Source: Mesostigma viride (Eukaryota; Streptophyta; Mesostigmatophyceae; Mesostigmatales; Mesostigmataceae). From it: a DNA stretch of 64,000 nt. How positions within the stretch are numbered: the first letter of the stretch is position 1; the number at the start of each line of letters is the position of its first letter. The notes beneath the pieces are model-generated. The model was not told the origin of the DNA, did no database searches, and saw only the letters and a program-made list of their open reading frames with translations. Where the stretch lies: NCBI GenBank assembly GCA_009746045.1, contig RPFO01001880.1, forward strand, positions 1-64,000, read 5' to 3'. The position numbers and the translations under genes are program-made. This document shows positions 7,005 through 49,000 of the stretch, one piece after another.

Positions 7005-10000
7005 CTGCAGATTGCCGCAGGTGTCGCAGAAGAACTTGTCGTTGTTGTTGAGCGTTTCCGTGGAACTGTGGTGACAAGGGGTGCAAAGGAAGGGATGGGG
7101 GCAGAAGGCACGGCAACACCATGGAACAGTGTCTACGTTAGAAGGTGGTTGCTGAGCGTCTGTGTGCAGCTGCTGCAGGAGACGGGTCGATGATAGGGGA
7201 GGCCTTTCTTGCTGCCCTTTTGCTTAAGACTTTTCTTTTTTCCGGAAGATCTGACCGATGGGGCCACGGAGCAGAGGGAGCACCCAAAGCATGTCATCGA
7301 CAGCTGCATATCGTCAACGTTCATGGGATGTGGAGCGCCTCTGTAGAGCTACATCGATCAGGCAGATACGTCGATGACAAGGCAGATACGTACTGCGGAT
7401 GATAGGGGACCCAGGCATCCCAGGCGAGGGTCACCCGGGGCATGCCACAGAGGCAGCATGGTGGAGGGTTGGGAAGCATCGTTGGAAGCTGCTCTATATC
7501 CACCGCCCCAGGTGAGCGATCTAGGACAGAAGAATTCAAGAGGCATTTTCCCACTGTGGGTACAGCCCTTGCTCCTGCGCCACCACCAGACGGAGGCACA
7601 ATTCCACAAAGCAGGGCAAGCCCCTGTACGTGTTGTGGATAGGGGTGGCCCGTCCCCACTGCTACCACCACCGACCCCATGGCAACGACAGTCCCCACTA
7701 GCAACTAGCCATACCATCCGCCTGGTGTAGGGAGCACGGGCGGAATGTCTTTCATGCAAGACAAGTGGTTGCAAGTCTCTGGCATATACATATGTATGCA
7801 TATTAATTAATTAATCAATTAAACTCGTGCATATACATATGTATGCATATTAATTAATTAATCAATTAAACTCGTGCATTTACATATGTATGCATATTAA
7901 TTAATCCATGAAACTCGTGCTCCTGTTGGGGAGGTACGGAGCACCGGAGTGCTTTTAATCCCTGTATATGCACAACAGGAAGAAAGGGCAGAGACCCCCT
8001 CTCTCCTTCATGCCAGAGGCATGCCACAGCAGCAATCGGACACGATAGACGATCCGGCAAGTTCTGTGGGTGCAATAAGACCCGTGTGAGCATATCATAA
8101 CAAGGAGCATACAAGTCATGTATGCATATGGTCAGGATTCTCCAGATTTCTTGCCTGCACTGGTTGTCTCTTTGATATGACTATGCCCCCGCCCCCCCCC
8201 CCCTCACAACGGAAGTCCTTGAGGCAGCTGGTAAGGAACCCTCGTCGATGGACAGGTCAGTATACGCTGTACAGGCTACACATAGAAGCCACATGTCCAG
8301 ATGCTCCTGCGGTGCATCCCACCTGAAGTTCTTGAGGCAGCTGGTAATCGACATGTTGGGGCCGACGTCGATGGAAAGATCAAGGAAGGTCTCGTCGCGC
8401 GCCGTGACGCTCTCGCAGCACAGGCAGCGCGTCTCGTTGGTGAGCACGCCCTGTAGGCAAGCAAGGAATGGGTTGGTTGAGCAAGCAAATACCAGTATAT
8501 GTGCATGAATGTATATACATATTTTAAACCCAACTTTCTCGATAAATACATACTACATATTTATACCTCCACAAGAAATGTGTTTCTAAACAGAAGCAGC
8601 GCGTCGCGTTGGTCAGCACGCCTGGCCAATCACATACAGAGAGCATGTGATGATGAATGTAGGAACGTATTGGTTGACTCATTGATGTAAATACGACCGT
8701 CTTGCAGCCTCAGACAAGTACACCTACAAATATTTGGGGAAGAAAACTTCAGTAGCCTCAAGCAAGTGCACCCGCCATACGTGGCTTAAACAACCTAGGG
8801 TCATGCAGCCACCGTAGTGGGAACAACACAGACATACAGTTCACGAGTAGCGTTGTAAAAAGCTGGACCACAACAGACGCACCTTGACTATGCCATGCCC
8901 CATGGCTTAGTACGAGTAGCAGTGGCATTTACATAGCACTGAATAGTAGATACTAAGAGAATGAAAGGGGTCTGCCTTGCAAAGCCGTGGCGAGAATTAC
9001 AACAACCAACGACTAGAGCCGCCGCACGTCACATATTTTGTGCATCCATGACTTGTTACACTTACTGATAAAGATTATCACAAGATCAATGATAAGATAA
9101 ACATAGCAAGTATCAAAAGTAACGTTGGCTAAAAAGTAACATTCATCAAACACAATCATGTCAGATCACATACCTTGCCTCGCTTGCATCGATGACATAC
9201 ACAACAAAATCCTTTAACGGATAGAATCCATCAAAACAGCCATGCCCACCATCGCCGCACCTTGACTGTCTCAAATAACTAACAAAGACATTCAACCAGA
9301 AGCACGGCCTCACCTCGAATATCTCGTGCACCCACGTCCTCACTTCCATCACGTCCCCATTACAAGCCTCCACGCCCCCCCCCCGTCCGCCCGCACGCTC
9401 CCGTTGAACCCATCGCTGTTCACCGATCCCCCCGATCGATGTGACGAGTGCAAGTGGCTGCCGTTGCCGTTGCCGTTGCTGTTCCCGTTGGCCAGCTGGG
9501 TGTCCTCGCCATCGGAGCCCAGGGAGGTGATCCCGTTAGCCCCGTGGCTGCTGTCGCCGCTGGCATACGCACCGCTGGAGAAGGCGCCGCCGCTATCCAG
9601 CGCCCTCTGCTGTTGTCGCTGTTGCTGCTTGGCCTTGGCCTTGGCCTCCTTTTGGAGGATTTCGACGAGGTTGTTCAGGAGGAAGTACAGGAACTCCTGA
9701 GCGTCCTGCGGGGGAGCAGGTAGGGGGCGGACAAGGTGGGAAGGAAAGGAGCCGCGGAGAGAAAGGTAAGATGGTTGTGATGGGGGGGGGGCCAACCGGG
9801 GTATGCCAAGGGAAAAGGAAGAGACAAGAGGACGGGAAAAGAAGGAAGAAAAGGAGGGGGCAGGTTGAATAGGAGGGGGGAGGTTGAAAAGTCTTGTGAA
9901 CCGATTATTCACCGTCCCCTTAGCTCATGCTCGCACGAGGCTACCAGCATGACTTATGACTACCTACCTGTGGATGCTCCCATTGATGCAGGTAGCTGAA

Positions 10001-11192
10001 GAACTGACAGGGCTGCATCACCAGCCCAGTGAGATCCCCCCCCCCCCCCACACGGCACGACTAGTGGCGAGCGCCCACCTGATGCATGTAGCTGCGGAAC
10101 AGCTCGTTCTCCTTCTTGAGGCAGCTGATGAAGCGGCGGGGGGCGATCACGCCCGTCTTCTTCTTGTGGTTGGAGATCTGCGGGAGGGGGGTATGAAACA
10201 GATGGGGAACATAAAGCAGGTGGGGGTATTACACAGCGGGGGGAATATAAAGAGAGGGGGGAACATAAAGCAGGTGGGGGTATTACACAGCGGGGGGAAT
10301 ATAAAGAGAGGGGGGGGCATAAAGCAGGTGGGGGTATTACACAGCGGGGGGAATATAAAGAGAGGGGGGAACATAAAGCAGGTGGGGGTATTACACAGCG
10401 GGGGGAATATAAAGCAGAGGGGGTATATAATGCAGAGGGGGGGTATGAAACAGAGGGGGGTTATAAAGCAGAGGGGGTATATAATGCAGAAGGGGTACAT
10501 AATGCAGAGGGGGGGTATGAAACAGAGGGGGATTATAAAGCAGAGGGGGTATATGAAGCAGAGAGGGAATACAGCATGGAATCGCCACCCCTGGCTGTTA
10601 AGAATGGCCATTGCAGAGCATTGGGTGACATGGCACCCCGTTTTCGCCTGGTGCTAGAAGACCTGCATGATCCCAGATGGACCTCCGTTCTGCGAAACTG
10701 CCAGCCCTGGCGGCTGAAGACAGCGACCACTGACCAGTAACGCTCTGTGCGAGCACTAGGAAGCCTTCTTCTTGGGACTCCGAAGTTGCAAATAGAATCG
10801 TTGAGCTGCTAAGGAGACGCCTGACCAGTGCAGGGAAGCCTATGCCATGCGGCAACGTCGATTATGGATTGATGAATTGATTGAAAGCATGTGACTGACA
10901 CATGCACGACCAAATGCAGTACGGCACTGGAGTGGGAACTGTGTTTACTTCAGCAGGACAGCTCTCAAAATAGGCGCCCTTCCCTCAGCAAATCAAGAGG
11001 CAGAGGCAAGTCGACATATGCCCAATCCACCCCCCGAAGCCGTCGACATGCGTACCTCTGGGGACAGCATGAAACATGCCACCCCGCTTCCCTAAATAAA
11101 TAAAGTGAAGCACACCAAAACAAAAGAAATCATAACAGAGGAGCCGATCAAGCTAACGTTTTCAGCTAACTAAATTACTCACCCCTGCCAGA

Positions 11193-11230
<38 letters not shown>

Positions 11231-12750: not shown

Positions 12751-13713
12751 TATGCAGACAGGTTTCTACGTCGCAAGAAAACGCCGGTCTCTAAAAAATG
12801 TAACCGTCGAGGTCATCCTGGCCTTAACGCCAGAAGCGGCAAGCCAGCCACCATAAGATAATGCAGCGAATACAAAGGCCACGTTACTGGGCACTCCCAG
12901 GGACAGTGGCGATTGTGATATGCCGATAACGGTGACGACAAGCCGACTTTGTCACACGACGTTCCCTAGCGCTCAAGTATTCAGCAGCATTGTGTCCTTC
13001 TAATTTAAGCGTTTCCATCGCCATTCGAATTGACTCCACATTTACTCCCTCCGCTGATCTATTATCCTATCCCTGCATCATAATTGCGGATGAATGACGT
13101 GGTGTCGCAGTGAGATTTCAATTGTTTAGTCCAAGCTGCCTTCAGCAGATACTTGTTGAGAATACGAAGAATGAATTCATATTAGATTGAGAGCAATTTT
13201 AATTTTGCGGTGTCCGGATTCTCGACTCGACTGACCAGTGACCACCTTGGAGATGAGGGCACGAAAGAAGTTGTCGTGTGGGTGGAACGTTGTCCGTTCA
13301 AGCCCTGCGACAATCGACCGGGGCCACGAGTCGTCGTGCTTTATCGTATTCTGGACGTTGTAACCATCCGGCTTGTCCGCCTCGTTGCTAGGATCAATAG
13401 GCAGTTGGTACGTAGCTACAACTTAGTGGATACGATCACAAATGTGACAATTGGCACAGATTCTGTCACCCAGGCTTTGACCCGAACTAGCGCGCAACAG
13501 TAACAACTGAACTAGAATCCATTTGTCAAAAGGTGGCTATGGCGGCGTGAAGGATAGAAGGAGCTAGAGTCGGCCATTCGCGACCGGGAGGATACCATTG
13601 GAATCGTCGCGAAAAGGTGCGTCTAACGAGCTCTCTCTTGCCCGCAGTCTTTTAGGCTAGCCGCCATGCGGACCATGTTGGTTGCAAGCTGTCTTACGTA
13701 GGTACGTACAGTA
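12751..13713. other. Upstream region of UBP3, no gene recognised
   Basis: This holds the 5' flank of UBP3 (the gene reads leftward from 12750) and the left flank of the fold-back LINE. A plus-strand open frame at 13210-13503 has no recognisable motif. I see no promoter element I can support. Confidence 0.4.
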
Positions 13714-14095
13714 AGCACTTGCACACCACACTGTTCTCGTGACGGCTAGCCCGGATGGCGGTCGGATTACGGGTAAAGTGCTGGTCGTGGGACGGTACGA
13801 GCTATGGTCAATGTATACCCGGCAGGTGCTGGGTTTCCTGATTATGCAAATACCCCCCTACCGCAGGTGCGGACAACACACTTTCACCCCTGGTTACGGA
13901 AATACCTTGCACATGCGGTCTAGTGGAGGAACCACTAATGCCATCCCCGGCGATTCGACATCGCCTAGAAATCCCCCCTTTGCCGTCATTGCTAGACACG
14001 GCAAGGCAATGAGGCTTTACCCCATGGTCATCACCCAACAGCTCAGTCAGTTCCGGCACCCCACCAACACTCGACACTGACACTCTTCCTCGCTT

Positions 14096-14515
14096 GTGGT
14101 TTCTCTGCACTTTTCCATGGTTGACCCGCAGGCCCAGTACAATATGAGCCACAACGACATGGTTCAGGGCAAGGTTCCCCCGTCGCCCGAACTGGAAGCT
14201 GCGTTACAAGCGTCCACAGCGAAGATATTGGTCATCATCCTCCATGGCATGCAGGATGCTTCGGTGTCAGATCGGAATGAACTGAAGAAACTGATGGCGG
14301 AACGGGGAGGTATCATTGTGGGCGGGGTTAAAAACCAACCCAATTTCCATGTGCGATTCTCATTCGTAGCAAAGGCTGAGTCCCCAGTTTTGAAAAACGC
14401 GCCCGGCAGGCAGCCAACCGCGGCAACAACGGGACCACCCACAACACCGGCATGGACATACGTGGCGGCGCCGGACGCAACGGAGGAGGCGGCCGCGCCC
14501 ACCGTGACTAGGTAA
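14096..14515 (+). CDS. LINE ORF1-like protein, left arm
   Basis: 139 residues if the first Met is used. Features are a helical segment LVIILHGMQDASVSDR, then ELKKLMAERGGIIVGGVKNQ and NFHVRFSF, then a Pro/Thr/Ala-rich tail. It lies immediately 5' of an endonuclease frame, the position of ORF1 in non-LTR retrotransposons. I do not recognise a domain with confidence. An identical frame lies on the minus strand at 15475-15894. Confidence 0.55.
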   Translation: MVSLHFSMVDPQAQYNMSHNDMVQGKVPPSPELEAALQASTAKILVIILHGMQDASVSDRNELKKLMAERGGIIVGGVKNQPNFHVRFSFVAKAESPVLKNAPGRQPTAATTGPPTTPAWTYVAAPDATEEAAAPTVTR

Positions 14516-14547
14516 GACCCGCCCGATACGCCACCCCACCTCGTAGC

Positions 14548-15442: not shown

Positions 15443-15474
15443 GCTACGAGGTGGGGTGGCGTATCGGGCGGGTC

Positions 15475-32300: not shown

Positions 32301-35300
32301 CTTCCTCTTCACAGGTCTCACCAAACATCAATCTAATGCCAAAGTACTCCAAAGCCGTGGCCAGGACGCCATCCACAGCACAGGGTCGCAAAAATAGGGC
32401 TTACAGTAGATGAGGGGCCTCATCGACTCACAGCCGTTGGAGGGCTGAATAGCAGAAAGGGGACTGATGGTCACGCAGTACGAGAAACAGCAACACTAAT
32501 AGCAGATAGCGGAGCGGTTGTACAGAACAAGAAACAGCGACACAAATAGCAGATAGGGGAGCGGTTGTCAAGCAGAACAGGAAACGGCGACAATAGCAAC
32601 ATTGCATACAAGACATTGGTAAAGTGAACTGGCAACGGCTGCCAGAATGATGGTACGATGAGAGCAAGGTGGCCCCAGGTAGCAGCAAAGTATCATTTTC
32701 AAATACAAAACAAATTTGTGCTAATTAATAAGAATTCATATTGTTGATACCAATGATGTTTGGTATTTTTTATTTTCTAAAAAGTACTTAGGGGACGATT
32801 TCACGGACGATTATAGTATTGGCATGAGTTATCGTCCTTGTAGTATCACCACGCACGAAAAGGTTGCTGACATTACAGTTTCCGGGCTATGGGGCGAGGC
32901 ACACTCACTCGTTGCCCTCAAAGTGGGGCGCCACCGTCACCATCTGCCGCAAAAAATTGGAGGGGGCAACCGAGCTCATCGGCTTGGCGCGGGACAGGTC
33001 CCGGACTAGATCCTCGACGCCTGCCAGGGGAGGGGCCCAGGGGGGTGACGTAAACATGCATATATTGGGTATGTAGATTGAGTATAAATAGATAAGGCAT
33101 GGCCATGTCAGCGATGTACCATGTATGGCATGGCGCAGAAAAAATTAGAAGTTATGTAGCGAGAGAGGAGTGTGTTATGTATGTGACTATGATGTGAGCA
33201 CGTCATGAGTGGAGGGAAAAGGAAGAGGGCTGAGAAACAAGTCAGCAGTCCTTTATGTCTTACTAGTACTGTCAGTACTATGGAAACAAGTCACGGGGTA
33301 GGTTACCTAGTAAACAAGGAAGCTGGCAGGTAACCGCAGGAAGGGGTGAAGAGGGAGGAAGGGAGCAGACACATACGCGAGCAGTTTATAACAGGTCACA
33401 AGTGGCCAGCAGCCCCTCACGGCTCATTACCTTAATGGCTTACAACCTAACATGACTAACAACCTTAATGGACACCGCTAAATATCCCAGAAACCTACGG
33501 TTTCTTTCCCCATTTCGCCAGCGCTAGCAGAGGACCTGACTACCAGCACCCGCAACCCTCATGGCACGCTGTTGATGAACTTCAGCAATCAGCGCCTGCC
33601 TCTCCCTTGTGAGCAGCACTAGCAACGGACCATCACAGCAACCACCCCACTGAGACACATAGCACTCGCTTTTGATAACCTTGAGCCACCCGCATCATGA
33701 GCCACCCGCTTCACTATACGACACCGCCACTAGGATACCGAGATGGCAACTGAGCGCCTGCTTCACCCCCTCCAAAGTGTTAGCATCGGACGATGTTACT
33801 GACATCCTCCACCCACACCACTCACTGTTGATGATCTTGAGCGCCTTCCTCTCCCCATTCACGGCTTCGGCACGCGTCCGGCCGCCTTGCAGGTAGCTCA
33901 GCAACGCGTCCGTGGACAGCAGGCACTGCAGGATCGTGTTCATGAAGCACTGCGGGGGCGTGCGGGGGCAAGGGGGGAAGCGGTAAGGGGGTGGGGAGGT
34001 GACAAGGTGATCACGGAGTGGCAATGTGGTGGCAAGGTGAATATGTCAATCAGATCACCAGTGTGTCCATGTGGTCGGGAGGTCGCGTGTTGTTGGGGCA
34101 GTGCAAAAAACACGGTGAGAGAAGATTGAGGTCAAGCCCACGCGTTGCAGGTATCTGGGAACGGGAAGGGGGGGGAAGGCGGAAGGGGGGGGAAGGCGGA
34201 AGGGCGGGCAAGGCAGAAGGGCGGGGAAGGTGGAAGGGCGGGCAAGGCGGAAGGGCGGGGAAGGCGGAAGGGGGGGGAAGGCGGAAGGGCGCAGAAGAAC
34301 TGGATGTATGGGTCGCGCAAGGGTGCATGTGCTTTAAGTGTGTGCCTTACCTTGAAACAGCGGGGCAGCTTTTATTTCAAATTTCTTTTGAAGTAACATC
34401 TCGTCACATGGCTTCATTACTCATAGAATTGAGTCAGTCCCATCGCAACAGTTGATCAATCCCGGCTTCCCCAGCAGTTCCCATGCATCAGCGGCCGCGG
34501 TCATCCCCACGCGCTCCGCCAGCACACACCAAGGAACTGCACCAGCTTGTGCATACGAGAGGGGTGTGTGCTTTGGCAGACCGTCTGTGTGGGGAGCCGT
34601 GCCATCTGCAAGTGGTCAGGTCGGTGGCGGCATGGCGGGTGGGTTGGGACCGAGGGGACCAAAGGGGGATGCCAGCACGACAGACTCGTACTGTACACCA
34701 ACACGTAGCGCAGCTATCGCGATCGCGCCACACCCAGCCGCTCCCGCCCGAGCGTGGCCAGGAGAAGGGAGGTTGGCTGGGCCATGCGGTGTTGGCAGGT
34801 GTAGGGCGACGGAACGGCCAACATAGTGCTGAAGTGTGGGCAACTCACGAAGGGGGAGAGAGGGAGGCCACATGCAGCAGTAGAAGGGAGGGGGATAGGG
34901 GGGGAAGGCGGGGGGGGGGTGGAGACGCAAGAAAGCGCAAGGGCTGGCCAGAAATGCTACTGCCACTGCTGCTTCTTGAACTTCGACTACAGCACTTCTT
35001 TATATATTCTGCACAAGATTCTGCATTTCATTAATAGCTACTGTTGTTTTTATTGCAATTTGTACTGTTGTTTCTACTAAAAATTGTTTCTACTCTCTTC
35101 TTAATGCTAGCTCCTAATTTGCCTCAACTCACTGTGTTGCCCAGGCGGCAAGTTACTATCATCAAGATTGTGTATTAGAGTTCTCTGTTTACCACAAGCT
35201 AATATGTGCCTCAGCTCACGGTGTTTTTGCCCAGGCTCGCTCATTACTATCATTGTTTATCATTGTACTCTAGCTGATTACATAGTAGTGTTCCTATTTG

Positions 35301-38300
35301 CCTCGGCTCACCGTGTTGCCCAGATTCGCCAGGCCCGCCATCGGCCGCCCCCCCCTGGTCCCGGAACCCAGGGGGCTCCCCTTCTCGCTGTGGCTGTCCG
35401 CCGGCTCCCCTCTCTGGACCAAGATGAGGAAAGGAGAGCATAACACAGGGTAGATAGCAGGTGTAATCGGAAAGGAAACAAGAACAAGAACAACACATGA
35501 GCGCTGTGGCCCTCCGCCGGCTACCCTCGCTGGGGACGAGAACCACACGGATTGCCGCAAGGATACGGAACGTCAAGGCAACAAGAAGAAGTAAGGCTCT
35601 CCGATCAACGCAACAAGAAGAAGTAAGGCTGAGGCGCTTTAGAACCAGACTGTGAACGGTCAGAGGGAGGGATCTGCATCGCTTTGTCGCTTCCTGTTGC
35701 AGGGGCGGAAATGGCGATAGAAGTACCCAACGGGGCCTAAGAATGACAGTCAAAGCTGCTATGAACCGATAACTTAAAACACGGGGCTTTACTATGATTC
35801 TCTATACCAATAGAAGTACCAACAGGGACCTCAAAGAAGAATGACAGTCACAACAGCTACTATCGATTACTGGGAAAACGGGGCTTTACTATGATTCTCT
35901 ATAGCAATAGAAGTACCAACCGGGACCTGACAGATGATTTTCAGTCACAATTCCTAGTAATCTACTACTCAAATCACAGGGCTCTACTAAATTTCTTGAG
36001 GCCCTGCCTTGTGGGTCATAATAATCCATCTGCGATGGTGACGGTGGTGTGTGTGTGTGTATGCGTTTGTGGGTTTGCGTGTCAGTTCCACTGCACCAGC
36101 TCCATCCAATCGTGCGTTTGTGGGTTTGCGTGTCAGTTCCACTGCACCAGCTCCATCCAATCGTCCATGGCCTTCCAGTGGATCCGCAACCACCAATTGT
36201 AACGGTATCTGTGTCTGCCCGAGGGTTGTGGGTGTCATAATCATCGCTCGCTGTCCTCCCCTGACCATGACTCGGCTCATTGGGCGATGGCTGGACAAGA
36301 ATTTCACGAGTTTCAGGGTGTTTGACCATTACTAGCTGCATCACAAGTAGAGGGGTGGGGGGCATTTTTCATCCGCAACCAGAAGGCCAAGCAGGAGGCA
36401 TCCAGGCTTGTGGTAGACGCAAACTTCTATTCTCAGCAAGCTTCTGTAGGATGCAGCGCATATGGAAGGGGCGAAGTACTTTGCTGCTGGGAAGTAGGAA
36501 TAGTTACCTTTTATTCGTAAATAGCGCAGTTGTTGGCCACAATTTTTTCCATAACTGGAAATAAGGTAGGCTCAAATGTACCATCAACATGGTGCACTCA
36601 CACGCCTACTGTCATCACAGTAGAGGCCACCGTTCGTACCTACAACATCAGCATACCAGTAATAATAGGGCACTCCCAGTACCACTGTCAACACAGTAGA
36701 GGCCACCGTTAGTACCTACAACATCAGCATACCAGTAATAATAGGGCACTCCTTGTACCACAGTGCACTCAGGCGCCCACTACCATCCCATCGCCCGAAC
36801 GAGAAGCCAACCGCACTTGTGTGTCTACATATGTGTTATGTGGTTGTGGTCACTGCGCAGGGCAATCTCACGGGCCAACACGCACATATCGGCCACATGA
36901 AAACCCGACTGCACTTTTGTGTGTCCACATATGTGTGTACGTGGTTGTGGTCATGGCCATCTCGCGGGCGAGCACGTACCCATCGTCCAAACGAGAAGGC
37001 GCGCGTGGGCGTCGACGTTGGTCGCGGCGTGAAACCCGACAGGCTGACCTTGGGGGTGGACGTGCCCTTGGGGGTGCTTGATTCCATGCTCACGCGCTGG
37101 ATGCGCCGCTCCACCTAACGCCATATAGGGAGACGATTAGGAAGCAACAGTTCGAATAGGTGAAAAGGGGCCCCGGTCCATGCTCACGCACTGGATGCGC
37201 CGCTCCGCCCAGCATTTATTCATGACTGCGTCACGCGACATTAGTGGCGAATGACACCAAGCGAGATCGGGTACCGCGGATGGGGAGGGGCGCCCACGAG
37301 ACCAGTTGGGGCACTCGCAAGCACGATGGGGTAGCAGAACCAGGTTGGTAGGAAGCAGCTGGGCAGGGTGTGGACTCTGCGCGGGCCACCACCCACCAGT
37401 GTGCGACACGCTGCGTGGTCCACTCGCCACAGAGCCACATGCTGCCTATGCAACCCGTCACCAGAGAGAGACCAATACTAGACGAGTACAACCGCAGCGT
37501 TCAACGCAAGGACTCGGCAGCAGCATTCGACACTGGCTGCTCAACAAGTCACCACAAAGCCACACACTGCCTGTGCACACGCACACGCACACAGCATGGT
37601 CCAGACAGCATGGTCCACACAGCATGGTCCAGACAGCATGGTCCAGACAGCATGGTCCAGACAGCATGGTCCACTCATCCCCCCCCCCCCCGGAGACGGC
37701 CTATCCCCTATCCGCACCCACCGCCGTGTCCAGCTCCGCGACACCATCGTGCGGCGACGCGAGCATGGGTGGGGGGCCCTGCACGCCTGGCCCCAGGGGG
37801 GACAGCCGGGCCAAGTGGTGCTGCAGCGGGCTGGTGGTGGCCGTGAAGGGCGACCGTTGCGACAAGAGCGTCGGCGACTGCGCGATGGCGATGCCTTTTG
37901 GGGAGAAGCCAGCGTCACGCACGTCGACCTGCAGGGGGGGGGACGGATGATAGGGATGAAAGTAAAGGCGGGGGGGCGGATGATAGGGATGCAAGTAAAG
38001 GAGGGGGAGCGGATGACAGGGATGCAAGTGAAGGAGGGGGGGCGGATGACAGGGATGCAAGTGAAGGTGGGCATACCAGTTTTTTAGTAATTAATCTGGT
38101 CGGGCAGGTGCCAGAAATAGGGCGAGCCAAGGCATGCCTGGACGAGTACTCATGACGTAGTGCTACATTACTGTAGGATGCTGCTACTATGAGAAGCTTG
38201 CAAGAGGGCTACGCAAGCCTAAACAAGTAGGTGTCACGAACATCAATCTGGGGGGGGGGCAGACGATAGGTTTACTACCCAGGACGGGCTTATTAACGAA

Positions 38301-39873
38301 TAGGGCTTAACGACAAGGGGTGGGCAAATATAGATGTTAAACAAGGGGTGAGTAGGTACCCTGTCGGTGCAACGCTAGCGTTTCCTTGCCCATCCCCATC
38401 TTGATCACTGCCCCCTTAATCAGACCCACGTAAGCTTCTTGGCAAGAGATGGTATGATGAGATAATGCATGTAATTATATTATATCACATATATTATGCA
38501 GATCCATTCCACCATCCATCAAGGAATATGTGCTACATGATCTCCCAACGGAGGCATGTTATAATTTAATTTAATTTAATTTAATTATGCAGATGAAAAT
38601 GAAACTATATATTTTAATATAATCTCGTTTTACTAAATGATACTATGAAATACTATACCCCCTTATCATATATATTATACTACTAGTACATTACATAACA
38701 TTATAGTAGTATAATACTATATCATATATTGCATTTATTATACTATATCAATGAGACAACCAGCGCATTTATCATACTATATTATTAAACTACACTGCAG
38801 CAGTATTACACATATTTTTTTTACTTGACAGCGTCGTTCCTGTCCACGCCTTCCTCCTGTTGCCACTCTGGCACCGTAACGTCCCATTCTCATTCAAGAC
38901 AGTGTTGCCTTCCGCGTTGTTTCCCCACTCACATCCGGCTTCTGCCTGCTCTTTTCGTTGTCATCTACCTGCACCCCATAAAATTATACATACATAATTA
39001 TATATACCTTTAATTATACATATAAAAACTCTTTGTGCCCCCCATCAAGCAACTACAGCATAGTGATAGTCTTCAAGTACGAGTAGGAGTACGGGTGCTA
39101 CAGTATTTGATACTCCACGTACACTAACTATAAAAGTTTTCCCATTTCACCTCCAGCTTCTGCCGCAGGGTTGCATCCGATATCTGAGAACCCATTAACA
39201 CCAGCTACCGTCTGCGCCCACCACCGCAAGTATGGGCTCACCTCCAGCTTCTGCCGCCGCCGGCCCGCCTCCCCCTCGCGCGCCTGCGTGGGCGACCGCA
39301 TGGCCTCCTCCCCGATCTCCAAACTGGCCAGCGACGTGAGAGCGAGCCCAGCACCCAGGCGGTCCCTGGAAAACATCGAGCGGCCGCTGTTGATGGGGGT
39401 GATGCCACTGGCGCCCCCAACGCTTGCCCCGTTGCCCGACCGCGATGACAACGACGACGGTGACGGCGACGATGATGACGTCATTACTGGACTGGGCAGC
39501 TGGAGAGAGGGCAGGGTGTGCGGGAGGGCAGTTCTCAGCACGGTGGACCCGCTTCCGCCACTTACCGGCCGCCCGGGCCCCTGGGGCAGCTCCCCCAGGG
39601 CCGGGGGCATCATCCGGGGCATCCCAGGGAGCAGCGCTGAGCTGGAGGCGGGGGGTTCGGCGACATGCCTGACACGGTCCAGGGGGATACGTGCGGGTGA
39701 CAGCAACGCCGCTGACATCTCGGAGAGCCGGTTGGTGTCCACGGGGGACAGAAGGGGCGGTCGGGAGGACATCTTGATCTCCGTGCCCAGGGGGGCCAGG
39801 GACGCGGGCGGCTTGCTGCGCTGGCCTATGCCAGGGTGGCTCGCGCCCGCCGTGGGGGTGGAGGGCCGCGCGT
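20365..39873 (-). CDS. Ubiquitin-specific protease, USP2/USP8/USP15-like
   Basis: Cysteine deubiquitinase. Coding segments on the minus strand, 5' to 3': 39242-39873, 37722-37928, 36980-37114, 35312-35413, 33826-33949, 32909-33020, 31630-31699, 29768-29942, 29243-29346, 27859-28270, 26644-26766, 25870-25969, 20365-20500. Every join keeps frame. Motifs in order: GLANLGNT at an exon end with catalytic Cys as the first codon of the next exon (CFMNTILQCL); VAPSNFLRQMVTVAPHFEGN; EEHDCQEFLTTLLELMNDDLNR; WKSYLGECNSIIT then DLFAGQL; two zinc-ribbon pairs (CVQCTVC, CSTCN); VLVIHIKRFTYS; PLRDLSLSEF; His box YDLFAVGHHAGSMASGHYFA; WYCFNDDAVTP; AYLLFYKRS. The first three exons encode a Ser/Pro-rich, probably disordered region. 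The true start codon and any exon right of 39873 were not found. About 810 residues are visible. Confidence 0.92.
20583..24590. repeat. Mosaic pentanucleotide array, about 3.9 kb, inside a USP intron
   Basis: Blocks in order on the plus strand: TCGTT (to 20850), CAGGT (to 21135), AAGGT with interspersed CAGGT and GAGGT blocks (to about 22380), GAGTT (to about 23478), GAGGT (to about 23766), GAGTT, then alternating GTGTT/GAGTT decamers, then GTGTT to about 24530. All blocks keep the same 5-bp register. The array fills most of the last intron of the USP gene (20501-25869). All long frames through it are artefacts. Confidence 0.96.
24591..25296. other. USP intron, non-repetitive part
   Basis: Mostly unique intronic sequence. 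It holds one 38-bp direct duplication (AGTTGGCTGGGAAGGTGTAC at about 25060 and 25098). Confidence 0.5.
25297..25690. repeat. 33-bp tandem repeat, about 11 units
   Basis: The unit begins AGGATGACAAGACTAGCACA and recurs every 33 bp from 25297, with shortened units near 25480. Because 33 is a multiple of three, both strands stay open. It lies in the last USP intron. Confidence 0.92.
26244..26440. repeat. 49-bp tandem repeat, four units
   Basis: CACACAGCCAATGAAGGATA recurs at 26244, 26293, 26342 and 26391 in the USP intron between the exons at 25870 and 26644. Confidence 0.92.
26541..26592. repeat. Echo of the 3' end of USP exon 26644-26766
   Basis: A 24-bp block beginning TTGTCCGGCGTGCCAAACTC is identical to the exon end, 91 bp away (26558 against 26649). 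It lies in the downstream intron. Confidence 0.88.
26766..27720. other. USP intron, no other gene seen
   Basis: Intron between the exons at 26644 and 27859. Short open frames here have no family signature. Confidence 0.5.
27713..27860. repeat. 64-bp tandem echo of the 3' end of USP exon 27859-28270
   Basis: GGATACCGATCACCAGCAC at 27725 and 27789 copies the exon end and donor (GGATACGGATCACAAGCAC at 27853) with an exact 64-bp period. The copies lie in the downstream intron. Confidence 0.88.
28778..29017. repeat. 48-bp tandem repeat, five units
   Basis: GGGCCACTTGGCCAAACAGC starts at 28778, 28826, 28874, 28922 and 28970. The period is a multiple of three, so long frames on both strands are artefacts. 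It lies in the intron downstream of USP exon 29243-29346. Confidence 0.93.
29041..29160. repeat. Echoes of the 3' end of USP exon 29243-29346
   Basis: The exon end and donor read GGCCATACCTTGGGGATGGG on the plus strand from 29235. Two copies lie at about 29047 (GGCCATACCTTTGAGATGGG, followed by the matching CACCAACAGGTCGAGGAA) and about 29127 (GGCCATACCTTTGGCATGGG). A weaker third copy is near 29195. Confidence 0.88.
29536..29583. repeat. Interstitial TTTAGGG-type telomere-like repeat
   Basis: Four to five exact or near-exact TTTAGGG units lie in the USP intron. A shorter run (about 2.5 units) lies at about 26467-26487. TTTAGGG is the plant and green-algal telomere unit. Confidence 0.7.
30340..30700. 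repeat. 21-bp tandem repeat
   Basis: Units of CCTTACGTACAGCCCTTATT plus one base, about 15 copies decaying at both ends, in the USP intron between the exons at 29768 and 31630. Open frames are repeat artefacts. Confidence 0.88.
31171..31630. repeat. 114-bp tandem array copying the 3' end of USP exon 31630-31699
   Basis: Units start at exactly 31171, 31285, 31399 and 31513, and the true exon border is at 31627. Each unit contains the exon end (codons for M-N-D/G-D-L-N/K-R-A-K) followed by an intact GTGAG donor, then about 75 bp of intron. The four copies lie in the downstream intron. Confidence 0.93.
31692..31935. repeat. About 72-bp array copying the 5' end of the same USP exon
   Basis: Four units begin with CATGTTCCCTGG or close variants near 31692, 31764, 31836 and 31909. 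CATGTTCC is the first eight bases of exon 31630-31699 and CTGG is its acceptor. The copies lie in the upstream intron, so this 70-nt exon sits between two arrays made from its own borders. Confidence 0.85.
32430..32610. repeat. About 63-bp intronic direct repeat, three decayed units
   Basis: GAAACAGCGACAC(A/T)AATAGCAGATA followed by GGGAGCGGTTGT recurs in the USP intron between exons 31630 and 32909. Confidence 0.75.
33560..33760. repeat. Decayed echoes of the 3' end of USP exon 33826-33949
   Basis: CTGTTGATGAACTTCAGC followed by AGCGCCTGCCTCTCCC at about 33570 matches the exon end (CTGTTGATGATCTTGAGC, then GCCTTCCTCTCCCC). Weaker fragments lie near 33667 and 33740. Confidence 0.65.
34147..34300. 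repeat. G-rich GGAAGGCGGAAGGGCGGGCA repeat
   Basis: About 150 bp of 10-20 bp units in the USP intron between the exons at 33826 and 35312. Purine-rich on the plus strand. Confidence 0.85.
34301..35110. other. USP intron, unique sequence
   Basis: Long overlapping frames on both strands at 34450-35030 have no conserved motif and lie wholly inside the intron. I do not call a gene here. Confidence 0.45.
35113..35250. repeat. Two echoes of the 3' end of USP exon 35312-35413
   Basis: GCCTCAACTCACTGTGTTGCCC at 35121 and GCCTCAGCTCACGGTG at 35208 repeat the exon end and donor GCCTCGGCTCACCGTG at 35300. They lie in the downstream intron. A copy of the exon's 5' end (CTCCGCCGGCTACCC) lies upstream at about 35515. 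Confidence 0.82.
35700..35970. repeat. Intronic repeat with 92-99 bp period, three units
   Basis: ATAGAAGTACC recurs at about 35717, 35809 and 35908, with long matches between (ACGGGGCTTTACTATGATTC twice). No exon is involved, but the period matches that of the exon echoes nearby. Confidence 0.8.
36780..36975. repeat. Two echoes of the 3' end of USP exon 36980-37114
   Basis: ATCTCACGGGCCAACACGCA at about 36865 copies ATCTCGCGGGCGAGCACGTA at 36958, which spans the exon donor. CCCATCGCCCGAACGAGAAG at about 36786 copies CCCATCGTCCAAACGAGAAG in the exon. Flanking intron (GTGGTTGTGGTCA) is copied too. A 5'-end copy lies upstream at about 37178-37208. Confidence 0.85.
37599..37672. repeat. 14-bp tandem repeat, about six units
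   Basis: ACAGCATGGTCCAG repeats just downstream of USP exon 37722-37928. Confidence 0.9.
37935..38066. repeat. About 31-bp G-rich tandem repeat, four units
   Basis: GCGGATGATAGGGATGCAAG units abut the acceptor of USP exon 37722-37928. Confidence 0.88.
38504..38583 (+). mobile_element. Short 5'-truncated LINE 3' end with 11-bp target duplication
   Basis: Eighty bases matching the 3' terminus of the LINE family at 55662 and 60162 (TATGTGCTACATGATCTCCC, then GGAGGCATGTTATAATTT and an AATTT-type tail). It is flanked by perfect direct repeats ATTATGCAGAT at 38493-38503 and 38584-38594. It sits in a USP intron. Confidence 0.9.
38595..39120. other. AT-rich USP intron segment
   Basis: Strongly AT-rich from about 38595 to 38820 and again near 39000, with no repeats of fixed period and no gene. 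Confidence 0.55.
39144..39168. repeat. Echo of the 3' end of USP exon 39242-39873
   Basis: TCACCTCCAGCTTCTGCCGC at 39147 is identical over 20 bp to the exon end and donor at 39238; the offset is 91 bp, in the downstream intron. Confidence 0.88.
39500..39565 (-). other. Possible 66-nt retained intron inside USP exon
   Basis: Within the Ser/Pro exon, GCCG precedes a strong donor GTAAGT, and CCTGCCCTCTCTCCAG is a strong acceptor 66 nt downstream. The segment is open and a multiple of three, so it can be spliced or kept without changing frame. Confidence 0.5.
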
Positions 39874-39889
39874 CTGGTGGAGAGGAGAT

Positions 39890-43049: not shown

Positions 43050-46000
43050 ATGGCGGATATTCCGGGTACATAAGCCTGTCACAATGAAGATTATGGTGGT
43101 TATGCGTTAGTGTCGTTTGGCTTTGTAGGCTAGTCTGTGGCTTCGGGCTAGTTTCCGTAGCTAACCGCGGCTTCTTGCCATTTACCCGTGATTGGTATCT
43201 GCATGTGCCCTTGTGTATTGCAGTCCGCTCATTTGCGTCGGCAGCAGCCACCTCTGACGTAGTGAAGCCGTTGTCGGTTGTCCAGATAGATGGGCAGGTG
43301 AGGATCGACGGGCCGGAGGCACTTACTACTTAGCATGTGATTAAGGGTGGCGTATTTATGCGCATGCCATCTTCGTTGTAGGCGCATGTAGGCTGCCTAC
43401 GGCGGTTTACGGGTTTTCCAGTGAGGTTGATGCCAGGGTTTTCCGATCAAGTTTTTTCGTGGGGGCTACACCGATGGAATTTGGAATGCCTTAAACGGAA
43501 AATAGGACTTCAATACTAGCGGCTGCATATATTATCCTTTGTGGGAAGGCTAGACTTTATAGCACGCTTTGCAGGTTATATCCCACCCCGAAGATCGCCA
43601 CCGTGGAAGATAGCTTTCATGTGCCGTGGAATTGCTGGGTCTGTGCGTTTGGTAAGCGATTCTGAGGCCTACCGTGGGACCCGAAAACCGCGTGCTTTTT
43701 CACCCGCAGGCTATCCTGAAGATCATGAAGCATTGCAAGGAGTGCATGCCATCACTAGTCACGGGTCAACTGCTGGGTTTAGACATCGGGGCGACGTTGG
43801 AAGTAACAAACTGCTTCCCTTTCCCTGTAAGTACCTGCCCTTACCTGCTCCGTGGTCTCACATGCACCACTCTGGTGGTCAAGCATGGCAACACCAAGCA
43901 TGCTTCCACCTGCCTCATGCCTAGGTGTGACATAGTACTTTTATCACTATGCGACGGCGGTGTGGCCTTTGCTGTAAATGTGGTCGTTCTTTGTTTCTCC
44001 CCATGGCTCAGTTGTTTAGCTTATCACACCATGAAGGTTCTCCATTCCCAGACGTAGCCTGTCTGCCCTGTACTTGTGTGGGAACCCAAAGTGTACAAGT
44101 AGCCTGTCCATATTTCTTTGTTGGTTGCATTGTCCGCCAGCCCTGTTCATGGAAGGAATGATCCGCTTCTGTATGCCTTCCTGCCTGCCGTAAGCAGATG
44201 AATCGAGAGCAATAACACATTTGGTACAATCAGTGATCGTGAAGTAGATTAAGTTACTATCTGTTTGTCCCTGCGGCCATGTGTTCCTGTTTTCCCTTGT
44301 GGATGCTGCTATTGTCATGTCCGCGGCTTACAGTACGTCCTAGAGCACATGAAGCATGTCGTAACAAGTGTTGAAGCATAAAGAGTTTTTTACTCAGGAA
44401 CGGAACTGCAGAAAATTATCCGACGTTTGGCATTGGAAGTGTGACTTTTTGTGTGTGTGTGATGATCGCCACAGGTACAAATGCCACGTCGCCACAGAAA
44501 TTCGCCACAGAAATACTGTGTCAACAGTTCTGTATTTTTCTATCACCTCATCATTGTGGGCTCTATATACTCTATTACGTTTTACTGATAAGTTTTACTA
44601 TTCATTCGTTCATGTGATTTATTGTTTTATCATGTATTTTATTTATTCTCATGTGGATTATTCCTCTGTTCTTATTTCATGTTTGGCCTCCCCCAGAGCC
44701 AGGGCGAGGACGAGGACGACGCGGGGGAGTCGGACGGCGCCAACTATCAGCTGGAGATGATGCGCTGCCTGCGCGAGGTCAACGTGGACAACAACACGGT
44801 CGGATGGTGTGTGGGGGGAGCCACGTAGACAACACGTTGGTATATTGTGATGGTGAGGGTCATGTGGACAACAACACGGTCGGATGGTGAGAGCTCAGAG
44901 CAGCAAGAAGAATGCCATGCGCCGTCCCCACTAGTTAAACAGTTGGTGGTGATTATGGTCGATGTGGGTGTACTTGGATTCGACATGGTTGACAAGGGCG
45001 GTACTAGGGTTAGAAAGCAGTACTTTTGACACAAGTTCACAAGCAAAGAGGACTCCTAATCCTAAGTTTGCCCAAACGATACCCATGGCCTGCACTGACG
45101 TTACCTCCACTCCTACCTGCTATCTCCACTCCTTCCCAGTACTGCTCCCCCAACATCTTAGGGAGATGGCCAGTGAGGTCTGGAGTCCTTGAAACTGCTC
45201 GCGCATGCATTTTGCGGATGCTTTGCTTGACAAGTTACCCCCCCCCCCCCCCTCGTTTGCTGCCTGCTGGATGCTCCACCTGCCCATCCCTTGACCCCAT
45301 GTGGCCACCCCTGCAGGTACCAATCCACCTACATGGGCTCGTTCCAAACTGTGGAGCTGATCGAAACATTCTTGAATTACCAGGTGCGTGGCACATTCTT
45401 GGATGACAGGCTACGTGACACATTCTTGAATAGCCAGGTGGCTGACCATGGGGGAAGGACTATGAGGGAAGGAGGGATAGAGCAGAATTATAGTGGAGGT
45501 TGATGTGCGTGTGAGCATCATCCGCGTCACTGGTTGCGCGCCCTCTCACAGACCTCTTTACCCACTCCCCATGCCCTACTTGTTGCCCCGCGTCTCCTTC
45601 CTCTTTGAGTAAATCATCGAGGGCTGTGTGTGAGCATCATCTTACCTGCCCGCCCTCACCCTCCGCTGTATCTGCTCTTCTCATTCTATTTATGGACCCG
45701 CTTCTCCCCCCCCCCCGCAGGAGAACATCAAGCGCTGCGTGTGCATCATTTACGACCCCCTGCGCTCCAGCCAGGGTGTACTGGCCATGAAGGCGCTGCG
45801 GCTCACCGACAAGTTTATGGACCTCTACCGGACACAGAACTTTAACTATGAAAAGTAGGTGGGAGAAGACAAGTTTGTGGTCTTCTACTGAAAGTTTGCG
45901 GAATTGTTTTCTACTTAAGTAGGTGCAAGCAGGGGGCAGACGTAGACAGGCGAACAGGGATCATGCTACCTCTTCCTTTCGCAGTAGAGGACAAAAGCAT

Positions 46001-49000
46001 GCATTCCAGACAACATTAGTGTACAGAAACCAGCTGACTGCCCACTGACTTGTACCGGACTCGCTTGCTTTGGCTGGCTTGTGTGTGTGCTTGTGCTTTT
46101 CTTATTGTGTGTGTGCATGTGTGTCTGTCCCTGCGTCTTTCGGACCATGACGTGGGCGTGACCGGGCACGTGCCGCGGCGTGCGGTGTCGCAGCATTAGC
46201 AAATCGGGGATGACGTACCAGAACATCTTTGAGGAAATCCCGGTATGTCCCTTCCCCTGTTCCACGCTCCATTCATCAATCGCCGAGTGCTTTGCATGCG
46301 CAAGATTTCCTTGGGCAAGTCTTCTCCTGGCATGTGTCCCTTGCTTCTTTCTTAGAAGTACCCCTGAAGTGTCTATCGCGGTGTTGCTGCGCGCGCCAGA
46401 TTTCTATTTTAACTAGCGTGAGTGTCTCCTGGTCTTCTGGTGCCCTGGTATCCTGCTGTATCCTGCTGTCTCTCACAAGTTTCCTAACCGCCTACCTGGT
46501 AGTCGTTTCGTGTGTGTGCTTGCCCGATCTCATTAGAGTACATGCCTTTAGAGTACCTATCTCTTCATACATTTTTCCTCACCGTTGTTCCGCTATCGTT
46601 TCGTGCGTTGCGTGCGCCAGATCTCCATCAAGAACTCGGCGCTGCACGCCGCACTGATGGCCGACATGTGCTCCAAGTCGACCGCGACGCGGGTGGGTGG
46701 GCACAGGATTGTTACTCACTTTTAAACAAAATATAGAGCCTCCCTGTGCTGTACCCATGTTATCCAGCTGATGTACTCTGATCCATGGTGGTCGCCATGC
46801 ACTCGTTCATTAGTTATCAGTAATGACAGTTACCTGGTACAAGAAAACAAATTGTGATCACTCTTCTGCCGTAGCTATGATGGTTTGTTAGTGATGGTCT
46901 GTGGATGGATTGTTAGTGAGTGTTTGATGGACAGTGAGCTACTCGAGAAGTGGCTTGAGAACTGGACAACCGTCACCTAGTCCATGACAGTACTTGTCGA
47001 AGCGGTCTGTGATCGCGACCTGTCCTCGTTTGACAAGGTCCGTTGGTAATGACAATTTTTTGTGGCGAACTTATTAACGATTTTTGGTGGCGTTTGACAA
47101 GGTCCGTTGGTAATGACGATTGGTGGCTGCTGGCGCACGGACCACTCCAGTGTGGTATGTAAATGCCTGGGAAGCGTCTTAAGAGGCAGCTAGACAGTTG
47201 AATTGCTTCCCCTTTTCCTTCCCTTATTCTCCCCCCTACCCCCCTCCCTCTTCCCGTCTCCCACACACACACACGCAGTGCGACCTGGACCGGCTGTCGC
47301 TCTCGACCAACCCGTTCCTGGAGAAGAACATTGAGTTTGTGCTCGAGTGTATGGACGACCTGTCGCTGGAGCAGCAGAAGTTCGCCTACTACCAGCGCAA
47401 CCTCGCGCGCCAGGCGCAGCAGCAGCAGCAGTTCCTGCAGAAGAGGAGGTGGGTGGTAGGCAAGCACGGCTTGCTCTGGTGAACAATCTTGGTGCTAATG
47501 TTGTTTAGAGTGCCATTCTTTTGGGGTGATATTGTTTAGAGTCCCATGTTGTGCTGCTTGCATGTCTCAAGAGCGCCTCGAGGGCGGAGATTCCCTGCAG
47601 CCGTATTTTCTCTGGATGGCGTCGCCGTCCTGCAGTCACCATGTTGCGGCCTCTCCACAAACTCTAGGTGTGTTCGTGCCTGCCCACGGCGCTCCCGGAC
47701 GACGGATCACAATGGGCCAGAGCGGAGAGGGATATGGTGCTATCCCTTTTGTACGCAAACGCTGCCATCTCACTACCTCACTTGCTGTTGCAACGGGATT
47801 CCCCCGCGTGCGTTGATCACGAATGGCGCGCTTAGGGCAGAGAAGGCGTAGAAATTTTCCTGTGGTGGAGATCGTTTGGTTGGAACTCTTACACAGGGTT
47901 TGTGTTGTTGTTTTTTCCATGCTTGCGTTGGTGAATATGATTGCTATGGTGCCCACAGGGCGGAGAATGCACAGAAGCGCGCGCACGGCGAGGAGGTGCT
48001 GCCGGAGGAGGACCCAAACAACCCGATCTTCAAGCCCATCCCGGAGCCCAGCCGACTGGACGCGTACCTCATCACCAATCAGATCAGCAGCTACTGCGGC
48101 CAGATCAGCAAGTGAGTGTGGCGCGCCGTGTAGTGGGATGATGAATCGATAGAGGTTAGAGCAGGTTGTGTGGGACATGTACCTCATGACCAAGCCAGAT
48201 CAGGAGCTACTGTGCGTGGCCAGATCAGAAAGTGAGTGCGGCGGCACCGTTTGTAGGGTGGGACGGTGGATGGGGTGGGGGTTATGGAAGCAGTGAGCGT
48301 GGGAAGCGCCCAGTTACCCATGGAGCTAACAACCACTGCCGCCAAGTCGTCAAATGTGACAACACGGGATATAATGAGTGGGGATGTTGTATGGGCACGT
48401 CATGTAGGAAATTTTGCACGTAAAATAGGAAATTCTGGAGTTGTTTCTTTTACTGTGTGCTCACAGTTTACTGTGTTAAGTGGCAGACGAGGAGGGCATT
48501 CGTATATGTGTGCCTTGCTAAGTAGAACAGCGAGCCATGTTGATCATTGGGCAAAATGGCCGCTTGTAAGAATTGGTCGTTGGGCAGGTGCACAGTAATG
48601 TAGTTTTCTTTTTGCTGCTGATGTAATGTACAAAGTGGGATTCAGCATTCTGACGTCACAGTGCATGCTGATCTCTTTGCATCTGTTGCGGGGGAGACTG
48701 GGAAGGGGGGGTTCAGTCGATCTGCATAGGTCTGGTGGCAAGGAATGTGTGTCGAGGAATGCGTGTCATGGTTGGTTGCAGTTAGTCACGGATCGTGCTC
48801 TGGTGTATTTGTTTAACAAAGAGATGCATGTAGACTAATTCATAGTGGTGTAGAACAGGCCAAGTGTCTCAGGGTGATTGGGTTAATGATCCCTGTGTGT
48901 CTAGCCCGGACCTCTGGAGTACATACACTTGTTTGGAGCTGCTATAGTGTTTCCTTAGCTCATTCCTCGGATTTTCTAATCTCGTTCGCCTTGCTTGACA

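Follow-up and report, generated by a model that had tools for sequence, protein, structure and literature searches.

The stretch analysed here (the window) is 64,000 nt of contig RPFO01001880.1 from the green alga Mesostigma viride (assembly GCA_009746045.1), and it contains three genes whose introns hold copies of the ends of adjacent exons. We call these copies echoes: a donor echo repeats the 3' end of an exon, usually with its splice signal, in the following intron, and an acceptor-side echo repeats the 5' end of an exon in the preceding one. There are no Rfam matches in the window at gathering score.

A UBP3/4-like gene (minus strand, 7005..10177; exons 10177-10079, 9705-9314, 8450-8323 and 7065-7005) is supported by a spliced model and UBP3/4 homologues. 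Donor echoes of exons 10177-10079 (9976..10004; 24/30 aligned, p=0.003) and 8450-8323 (8204..8259; 47/66 aligned, p=0.003) are found on the same strand, and so is a copy of the 5' end of exon 8450-8323 on the acceptor side (8590..8632, p=0.003).

The USP-family gene (minus strand, 25869..39499, first intron from 39565) was modelled with 12 internal exons; a homologue search returned 94 proteins, none more than 40% identical, and thus no ready-made gene model. All its echoes are on the minus strand. Exon 39499-39242 has two donor echoes, at 39147..39166 (20/20 identical) and 38946-38928 (17/19). Two are likewise found for exon 37114-36980 (36787..36903, comprising 36903-36858 and 36828-36787; exon-only test and alignment), exon 35413-35312 (35112..35240) and exon 29346-29243 (29021..29163; 40/49 and 58/76), and one for exon 26766-26644 (26513..26598; 64/87, with an identical 24-nt core). 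Three partial echoes of exon 33949-33826 lie at 33547..33774, two with a GC donor and one stopping before the donor. Two donors are covered by tandem arrays: a 114-bp x 4.4 array (31165..31664, 96% match) runs from within exon 31699-31630 across its donor, its final copy retaining just the exon end and 9 intron nt, and a 64-bp x 2.4 array (27716..27871) lies over the donor of exon 28270-27859. Acceptor-side echoes precede exons 37114-36980 (37177..37209, p=0.003) and 35413-35312 (35502..35533, p=0.003), and a 71-bp x 3.5 array (31686..31935) lies over the acceptor of exon 31699-31630. A possible acceptor-side echo of exon 37928 (38233..38270), not among the copies named beforehand, has no support in the exon-head test (p=0.973).

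The eIF3h gene (plus strand) extends over 43066..49103, from its first intron (43066) to the start of its last exon (49103); from exon 3 onward the model equals the Mesostigma protein P0001, itself a database prediction. Its donor echoes, also on the plus strand, belong to exon 44697-44806 (44858..44911, with an identical 23-nt exon core), exon 45317-45383 (45393..45438, a 27-bp x 3.3 array), exon 45721-45854 (45868..45925, p=0.003, limits judged by eye) and exon 47959-48111 (48173..48263, 73/91). A genome search with exon 44697-44806 and its echo stretch found no second copy. Ahead of exon 6 (45721-45854) there is an acceptor-side echo (45576..45664, plus strand, p=0.003) that had not been listed before. 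The outer borders of the echo-bearing introns give open proteins for both the USP and the eIF3h gene.

Window donors were tested by comparing the last 50 exonic nt with the exon's own intron against 300 dinucleotide shuffles (the exon-only test), using the 24 introns of at least 100 nt and excluding a single 66-nt intron. Twelve of these 24 pass at p<=0.01, each of them named in the original prediction, made from the sequence alone; its 14 donor-side copies were all found again where it had placed them (14/14). Two named donors, 35311 (p=0.060) and 27858 (p=0.233), miss the exon-only cut-off because just 12-18 and 13 exonic nt are shared, respectively; alignments through the donor are clear at 35311 (29/33 and 30/38) and at 27858 (39/43), which sits within the 64-bp array. 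The 5'-end copies it named stand at 8450, 37114 and 35413 (p=0.003) but not at 31699 (p=0.213 in the exon-head test), which is nonetheless the 71-bp x 3.5 array.

Because the echoes contain exon sequence, they might be taken for remnants of whole duplicated exons or of processed copies. That origin is extremely improbable in general and already refuted for the window cases: inner-exon windows (ending at least 50 nt before the donor) were copied in 0/34 cases in the window genes, where duplicated or mutually exclusive exons were thus not found, and the alignments pass from exon into intron at the donor.

Echo frequency at donors and acceptors

The echoes are real and extend beyond the window. 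We tested ~150 donors overall, namely the window set (24) and two outside sets (78 and 50), and counted echoes at z>=4. Donor echoes were found in 11/24, 21/78 and 13/50 cases (pooled 45/152) and acceptor-side echoes in 4/24, 4/78 and 5/47 (pooled 13/149; p=4e-6), so the asymmetry originally proposed, with 5'-end copies rarer than 3'-end copies, is real. About one-third of the tested exon ends recur at least once in the following intron, ~100 bases from its start and in most cases together with the splice signal. In the window, exon ends matched other introns in 4/601 comparisons, vs 11/24 for their own donors, and the wrong-side intron in 0/23; the pooled controls gave 12/1174 for other introns and 2/148 for exon tails against the wrong-side intron. 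Among 102 donors (window and outside combined), copies were direct in 33/102, reverse-complemented in 0/102 and reversed in 0/102. A version of the test free of the gene finder gave 18/62 vs 5/62; the window genes served as the training set of the gene finder, whose 12/12 recovery of USP exons is therefore not independent.

The minimum intron or flank was 150-200 nt for both outside sets, the gene-finder-free test and the young-array count, and 250 nt for the intronic-baseline tests, the distance profile and the block-coverage measurement. Exons below 25 nt were excluded, as were L013 and L030 (second copies of L012 and L029), a locus of the second outside set (13/50) that contains masked letters, and masked flanks in the other sets. 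Three donors apparently misplaced by the gene finder (L031 1412, L032 2344 and L012 2626) are excluded from the identity profile, extension counts, codon test, echo lists, block coverage and the counts of alignable intron parts, and are still counted in the 21/78, the intronic baselines and the TRF array counts.

In 82 introns TRF found 12 arrays that cross a splice border (three of them weak or at doubtful donors), including tandem arrays that run from a coding exon through its donor. Among young arrays in the 82 introns (at least 90% match), six cross donors and none an acceptor, with 0.72 expected per side; this count supersedes an initial TRF pass, in which 13 arrays crossed donors where 2.5 were expected. 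Whether echoes exceed random intronic duplication, the point on which the original prediction turned, depends on the baseline. There is an excess over young-array density, and also over the first-copy intronic baseline: 29/95 vs 120/1582 (7.6%), or, after correction for the frozen exon copy, 18.8/95 (19.8%; p=1.6e-4). Against the any-copy intronic baseline (305/1582, 19.3%) the excess is absent, and this match is what uniform random tandem duplication in introns would give, with zero donor preference and better detection through the exon-frozen copy. Such uniform duplication is nevertheless quite unlikely, as the any-copy rate counts each unit of multi-copy arrays, the six young donor crossings occur where decay is negligible, and exon starts are just as frozen yet echoed in 5/95.

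Several surviving acceptor echoes retain AG. L013, which is outside the counts as a second copy, carries a 98% array crossing an acceptor, so acceptors are not immune. We dropped purging of acceptor echoes as the demonstrated sole cause of the asymmetry, as the acceptor rate is no different from the last-copy intronic baseline (5/95 vs ~107/1570, p=0.68); that initial idea relied on any-copy windows, with 6/95 for exon starts and 17/95 for the adjacent intron.

Structure and decay of the echoes

The median distance to the nearest echo is 95 nt, with the middle half at 80-113 nt. Division of the spacing by three leaves 0, 1 and 2 in 10, 12 and 7 of 29 echoes; reading-frame preference is absent, and frame-preserving use of echo donors was rejected on that ground. 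Among 20 donors with alignments at least 12 nt past the donor, identity is ~0.89 in the exonic part and drops in a step to ~0.77 in the intronic part. Exon-echo mismatches amount to 10.4, 10.2 and 17.3% at codon positions 1, 2 and 3 (29 echoes), a pattern in which changes in the echo are free and those in the exon mostly silent. The decay of the echoes is that of unselected DNA, without visible constraint.

The proposal that extra donors are left behind is borne out by donor scores: of 29 nearest echo donors, 22 are no weaker than the 10th percentile of genuine donors, a level attained by 24% of random intronic GT. In alignments that were chosen to pass the donor, the echo agrees at position +1 in 1.00, at +2 in 0.90 and at +5 in 0.95 of cases. 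Strong donors could mean that echoes are functional, selected as alternative donors or as decoys (e.g. for U1 snRNP holding or splicing regulation). We consider this very unlikely: the true donor keeps those three positions as well, so a match of ~0.89 would arise even with the echo unselected; there is no frame preference, codon positions 1 and 2 decay equally, and in the paralogues described below the echo diverges to about the same extent as its intronic neighbour, with one paralogue (L012) lacking the unit.

Echoes had been attributed to tandem duplication units that straddle exon-intron borders. Border-straddling duplication is found throughout the sampled loci and is in part recent (arrays at least 90% identical cross donors, and copy number varies between paralogues), but the intron part of the unit is unalignable in 8/10 nearest echoes with exon identity of at least 0.90 and at least 25 nt of intron in the unit. 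It is also unalignable in 14/17 nearest echoes of lower exon identity. The eight near-identical echoes sit at +68 to +107, and simulated simple tandem duplication with neutral decay gives such short extensions in <=1%. These eight favour donor-directed copying (e.g. nick or break repair with filler), in which a block ending at the donor core would be placed ~90 nt downstream with unrelated sequence between. So do the excess of young arrays at donors, homology reaching <=12 nt past the donor in 6/16 nearest and 6/8 last echoes (exon identity >=0.88, ~58 nt available; single-echo donors enter both sets), a copied block that fills less of the spacing at donors (median 0.52, 26 blocks) than within introns (0.82, 51 blocks), and L029, where a 2-nt filler separates two copies of the exon end + 7 nt. 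However, the right ends of the 26 blocks are spread (10 within 12 nt, eight at 13-30, seven beyond 30 and one before the donor), and for some short-extension echoes a gapped local alignment continues into the intron (e.g. L019_7325, 45/68), therefore the point at which homology is cut off depends on scoring. G-richness after the donor also speaks against such copying, and led us to reject a G-richness or R-loop origin, as G minus C in +6..+66 is 0.125 at donors with echoes (n=31) and 0.136 at the others (n=51), which is no difference (p=0.96).

An arrangement in which older echoes lie farther out, as on a conveyor, was also rejected (nearest younger than last 8 vs 4, one tie, p=0.39).

A paralogous exon family

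In the family formed by L012, L013, L038, L039 and L040 the unit is 104-110 nt long and consists of the exon end and ~63 nt (N). It is present in L038, L039 and L040; L013 has three copies (a 104 bp x 3.4 array), L038 one and L012 zero. L013, L038, L039 and L040 share N as well as an echo placed at +104 to +110, with pairwise z of 5.7-19.9 for N and exon identity of just 0.71-0.79 in five of the six pairs. The L012 intron opens with the sequence that follows the last echo of L013, differing at one position in 60 (z=31). The most plausible reading of the differences in unit number is a single gain and a single loss. Sequence following the first echo of L040 is still N-like (z=4.8), as simple tandem duplication predicts, and this counts against donor-directed copying, though other members look junction-bounded, the flank after the last echo not being N-like in L013 (z -0.3), L038 (1.3) or L039 (0.7). 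Collapse between exon-end copies gives edges of the same kind (L012). On the whole, donor-directed copying appears unlikely.

Echoes in L039 and L040 did not show concerted evolution with their own exons: the L039 echo is closer to the exons of other paralogues (24) than to its own (16), and that of L040 slightly favours its own (29 vs 26). A genome search with the N of L013 gave four matches, three in L013 itself and the fourth in L038 next to the corresponding paralogous exon; for this N, the one compared with the whole genome, there are not many dispersed copies, and a mobile element or introner is unsupported.

Origin of the echoes and comparison with known systems

Recurrent short-range duplication with slippage, tolerated at donors, is probably the best explanation of the echoes. 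Short-range direct duplications of DNA would recur and yield echoes as by-products. Where one crosses a donor, the authentic donor would stay first and a decoy exon end with its donor would land downstream, to be tolerated and to drift as unselected intron DNA. The exon copy would be held by selection and the direct repeat would therefore outlast one that is wholly intronic, a persistence that may be the reason for the donor excess. A surviving repeat could seed slippage or unequal exchange, the presumed route by which units of exon end + N are added or deleted. An event crossing an acceptor would set the decoy ahead of the true acceptor, where it may more often be harmful and purged; such selection may be why acceptor copies are scarce.

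Duplications that cross the 5' border of an intron make introns of this alga gain and lose DNA. The earlier claim that introns grow in this way finds no support, since introns with echoes do not exceed the others in length (median 938 vs 1017 nt, p=0.87) and units are also lost (L012). More tentatively, it is possible that exon ends act as protected seeds and donors as hot spots, with introns turning over from their 5' border in ~100-nt steps through duplications often ending at the donor. Coding selection would freeze one copy, so that the repeat pair would never fully decay and would keep re-seeding unit gain and loss.

Changes in intron length are usually studied via transposons and rare intron gains. 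A coding exon end keeps a fossil record of small duplications that is unreadable inside introns, and duplication rate, unit size and survival can therefore be measured per intron. The donor-acceptor asymmetry, if confirmed genome-wide, would gauge how far splicing tolerates decoys on each side, and the echoes are natural experiments with several strong donors in succession.

Intronic minisatellites and other tandem arrays are arranged head-to-tail and vary in copy number. Several Mesostigma echo sets are such arrays; unlike them, however, the first unit here is anchored in coding sequence and includes the splice donor, and most echoes are not full tandem units. In plants, staggered breaks or paired nicks give tandem duplications of tens of bp, sometimes with filler between the copies, and the Mesostigma blocks are likewise tens of bp long, at times with filler. 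We know of no link between such duplications and splice donors.

The original statement that no named class matches needs qualifying, as a single tandem duplication across a splice border is known from the potato RdRp gene (excerpt of PMC4974935). The Mesostigma echoes resemble that case in crossing an intron-exon boundary, and they resemble the intron-creating tandem duplications of the same excerpt in that a short direct duplication within a gene supplies extra splice signals (PMC4974935). In intron creation, as the excerpt describes it, a new intron arises from a unit that contains AGGT or spans an acceptor (PMC4974935), whereas in Mesostigma the unit lies across the donor of an intron already in place, no intron is seen to be gained, and the surplus donor stays intron DNA. 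Novel intron positions in Drosophila (tandem duplication or intron sliding) also duplicate exon-end and splice-site sequence at the borders, according to the excerpt of PMC2891723; there intron positions shift, whereas in Mesostigma the positions stay and the content of the intron alone changes.

Gene models and repeats of the window

We modelled three genes in the window (a UBP3/4-like and a USP-family gene on the minus strand, eIF3h on the plus strand), which gave 25 introns, 24 of them at least 100 nt long and tested. Over 91% of its length, the spliced eIF3h protein model is 100% identical to a database-predicted Mesostigma eIF3h protein (P0001), with which all modelled exons from the third onward agree exactly; the window, which lies on contig C1537 (440-Mb assembly), therefore belongs to the nuclear genome of Mesostigma, a streptophyte alga. 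The published genome, in the part of the paper available to us, has long introns (mean 1142 nt), with repeats making up 30% of intron space (PMC6947507).

The reading frame of the UBP3 exon at 9314–9705 (minus strand) is broken close to a stretch of about ten Gs: either a homopolymer error of the assembly or a real lesion. A 44-bp satellite at 11–6335 (143.7 copies, 98%) begins past the UBP3 exon at 7065–7005; it recurs at 8768–10000 of L028 (contig C1645), where the exons that come after it match the C-terminal part of UBP3. The satellite thus probably lies within an intron of UBP3 and caused the assembly to break there. Pentanucleotide arrays (TCGTT, AAGGT, AGTTG) fill nearly 4 kb between the UBP3 and USP genes (20646–24525), and repeats at about 56.0–61.3 kb, in common with L011, L023 and L028 (80–97% identity), contain reverse-transcriptase-like reading frames, as judged by eye.

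Donor echoes and their baselines

We call a copy of an exon end (donor side) or exon start (acceptor side) inside the adjoining intron an echo. When 50 exonic bases were compared with the intron (300 dinucleotide shuffles, cut-off p ≤ 0.01), 12 of 24 introns contained an echo of the preceding exon's last 50 bases, and 4 of 24 one of the following exon's first 50. Copies with z ≥ 4 were found at donors in 11/24 own, 4/601 other and 0/23 wrong-side introns, and at acceptors in 4/24, 6/577 and 0/23, respectively. All 14 donor cases of the original prediction were re-found in alignments, arrays or sequence.

The outside sample, about 300 kb of the same genome, comprises 29 longer loci (L009–L037) and smaller pieces, chosen around USP-family and CCT-chaperonin genes; exons were marked by homology in 27 of the longer loci, two second copies being excluded. 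Among 88 homology-supported exons, z ≥ 4 copies were observed in 21/78 cases on the donor side vs 4/78 on the acceptor side (p = 3e-4; controls: wrong side 1/78 and 0/73, other loci 8/573), and homology-match edges alone, without a gene finder, gave 18/62 vs 5/62. A further 58 ab initio exons gave 13/50 vs 5/47 (wrong side 1/47 and 0/50). The difference is not significant in the window (p = 0.06) or the ab initio set (p = 0.07) taken singly; pooling all three sets gives 45/152 donor vs 13/149 acceptor copies (p = 4e-6), and copies of 5′ ends are rarer, as had been predicted. A re-run of 102 donors found 33 direct copies and no reverse-complement copy. Across the loci sampled, the pattern of donor echoes is well supported.

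Whether they exceed random intronic duplication depends on the baseline. A downstream copy was found for 305 of 1582 interior windows (19.3%) and for 29 of 95 donors, or 18.8 of 95 once decay of the exon copy is simulated; after this correction donors show no excess over the any-copy baseline. Counting only the first unit of each set, the position that a donor occupies, lowers the baseline to 120/1582 (7.6%), and the donor excess is then significant after correction (p = 1.6e-4). Windows adjoining the border have copies in 16/95 (donor side) and 17/95 (acceptor side) cases, and the acceptor copy rate does not differ from its own last-copy baseline (p = 0.68). Among all TRF arrays in 82 introns of the window and loci, 12 cross donors (three weak or at doubtful donors) and four cross acceptors, with 1.87 expected per side; of the arrays with at least 90% match, six cross donors and none an acceptor (0.72 expected per side; P = 1e-4). 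We give the first-copy and array baselines more weight, since the any-copy baseline counts every unit of a multi-copy array; the predicted excess holds against these two but, once the donor rate is corrected, not against the any-copy rate.

Probable gain and loss in the RNLYELH paralogues

The USP-family exon ending RNLYELH has 12 genomic matches, ten of which were read. In six (L013, L038, L039, L040, L043 and L014) the exon's own end is echoed downstream, L041 has a weak echo (looser search only), and none was found in the 300–400 nt read for L012, L042 and L044. L013 has three 104-nt units, each made up of 63 nt and a repeat of the exon's final 41 nt; L038 (exon 96% identical to L013) has one, as do L039 and L040 (71–79% exon identity), at +108 and +110, where the units contain a homologous 63-nt stretch (z 5.7–10.2). 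A further echo lies at +201 in L040. The unit, present in L013, L038 and the diverged L039 and L040, is therefore old and was expanded in L013.

L012, with an exon 95% identical to that of L013, is without the unit, and the start of its intron matches the sequence past the last echo of L013 with a single mismatch in 60 (z = 31), as would be expected of a deletion between two exon-end copies. The other five paralogues have no clear relative of the 63-nt stretch past the donor (z ≤ 3.9). DNA past the first L040 echo still resembles this stretch (z = 4.8), which is what simple tandem duplication would leave; DNA past the echo in L038, L039 and L013 (last echo) does not. Across the acceptor of the same L013 exon lies a 94-bp × 6.2 array (98% identical), so acceptors are not exempt.

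Echo structure, intron turnover and known cases

The median distance to the nearest echo is 95 nt (interquartile 80–113; 29 donors), and no preference for multiples of three was found in echo spacing. For 20 donors whose alignments continue ≥12 nt beyond the donor, exon–echo identity averages about 0.89 before the border and falls to about 0.77 after it, a step that would be expected if the exon copy is frozen while all else drifts. Mismatches are equally frequent at codon positions 1 (10.4%) and 2 (10.2%) and more frequent at position 3 (17.3%). Of 50 echo copies whose alignment runs across the donor, 42 retain GT. Among the nearest echo donors, 22 of 29 have scores typical of real ones, in line with the prediction that extra donors are left behind.

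Several results do not fit simple tandem duplication. Among nearest echoes whose exon identity is ≥0.90 and whose unit includes ≥25 intronic nt, the intron parts align in only 2/10, and at lower exon identity in 3/17; the duplicated block covers a median of 0.52 of the spacing at donors vs 0.82 inside introns. Echoes with identity ≥0.88 extend at most 12 nt past the donor in 6/16 nearest and 6/8 last cases, vs at most 1% in simulated simple duplication with neutral decay. Looser gapped alignments run on past the donor in some echoes, and where exactly the homology stops therefore varies with the scoring used. These echoes may have been renewed through repeated gain and collapse of units, or the duplication itself may often stop close to the donor, with filler between the copies. 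For the eIF3h exon-4 and L019 examples, no second copy was found in a genome search.

Introns with echoes (n = 29, median 938 nt) are not longer than the others (n = 53, median 1017 nt; p = 0.87), against the proposal that introns grow by such border-straddling duplications. Taken with the unit loss in L012, the lack of a length difference points to turnover and not to steady growth. Of the mechanism first proposed, border-spanning duplication stands at the sampled loci; intron lengthening does not, and the intron parts are mostly unaligned.

In the same 82 introns, G prevails next to the donor (0.35, against 0.22 for C, at +6..30) and C next to the acceptor (0.42, against 0.20 for G, at −30..−3), with a gradient extending over hundreds of bases. 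They contain 115 G runs of at least six (23 within 100 nt of a donor, one near an acceptor) and 143 C runs (two near donors, 47 near acceptors). L029 (C887) and L030 (C1641) are 96% identical CCT gene copies, possibly haplotigs, with about 3.1–3.2 kb extra in one L030 intron.

The original prediction knew of no named class for such echoes. Our literature search was limited and we make no claim to novelty in print; single cases of border-spanning tandem duplication are already known, from what is available of PMC4974935 and PMC2891723, and what we think is new here is how common they are, their bias toward donors, and a gain and loss of units anchored in the exon.
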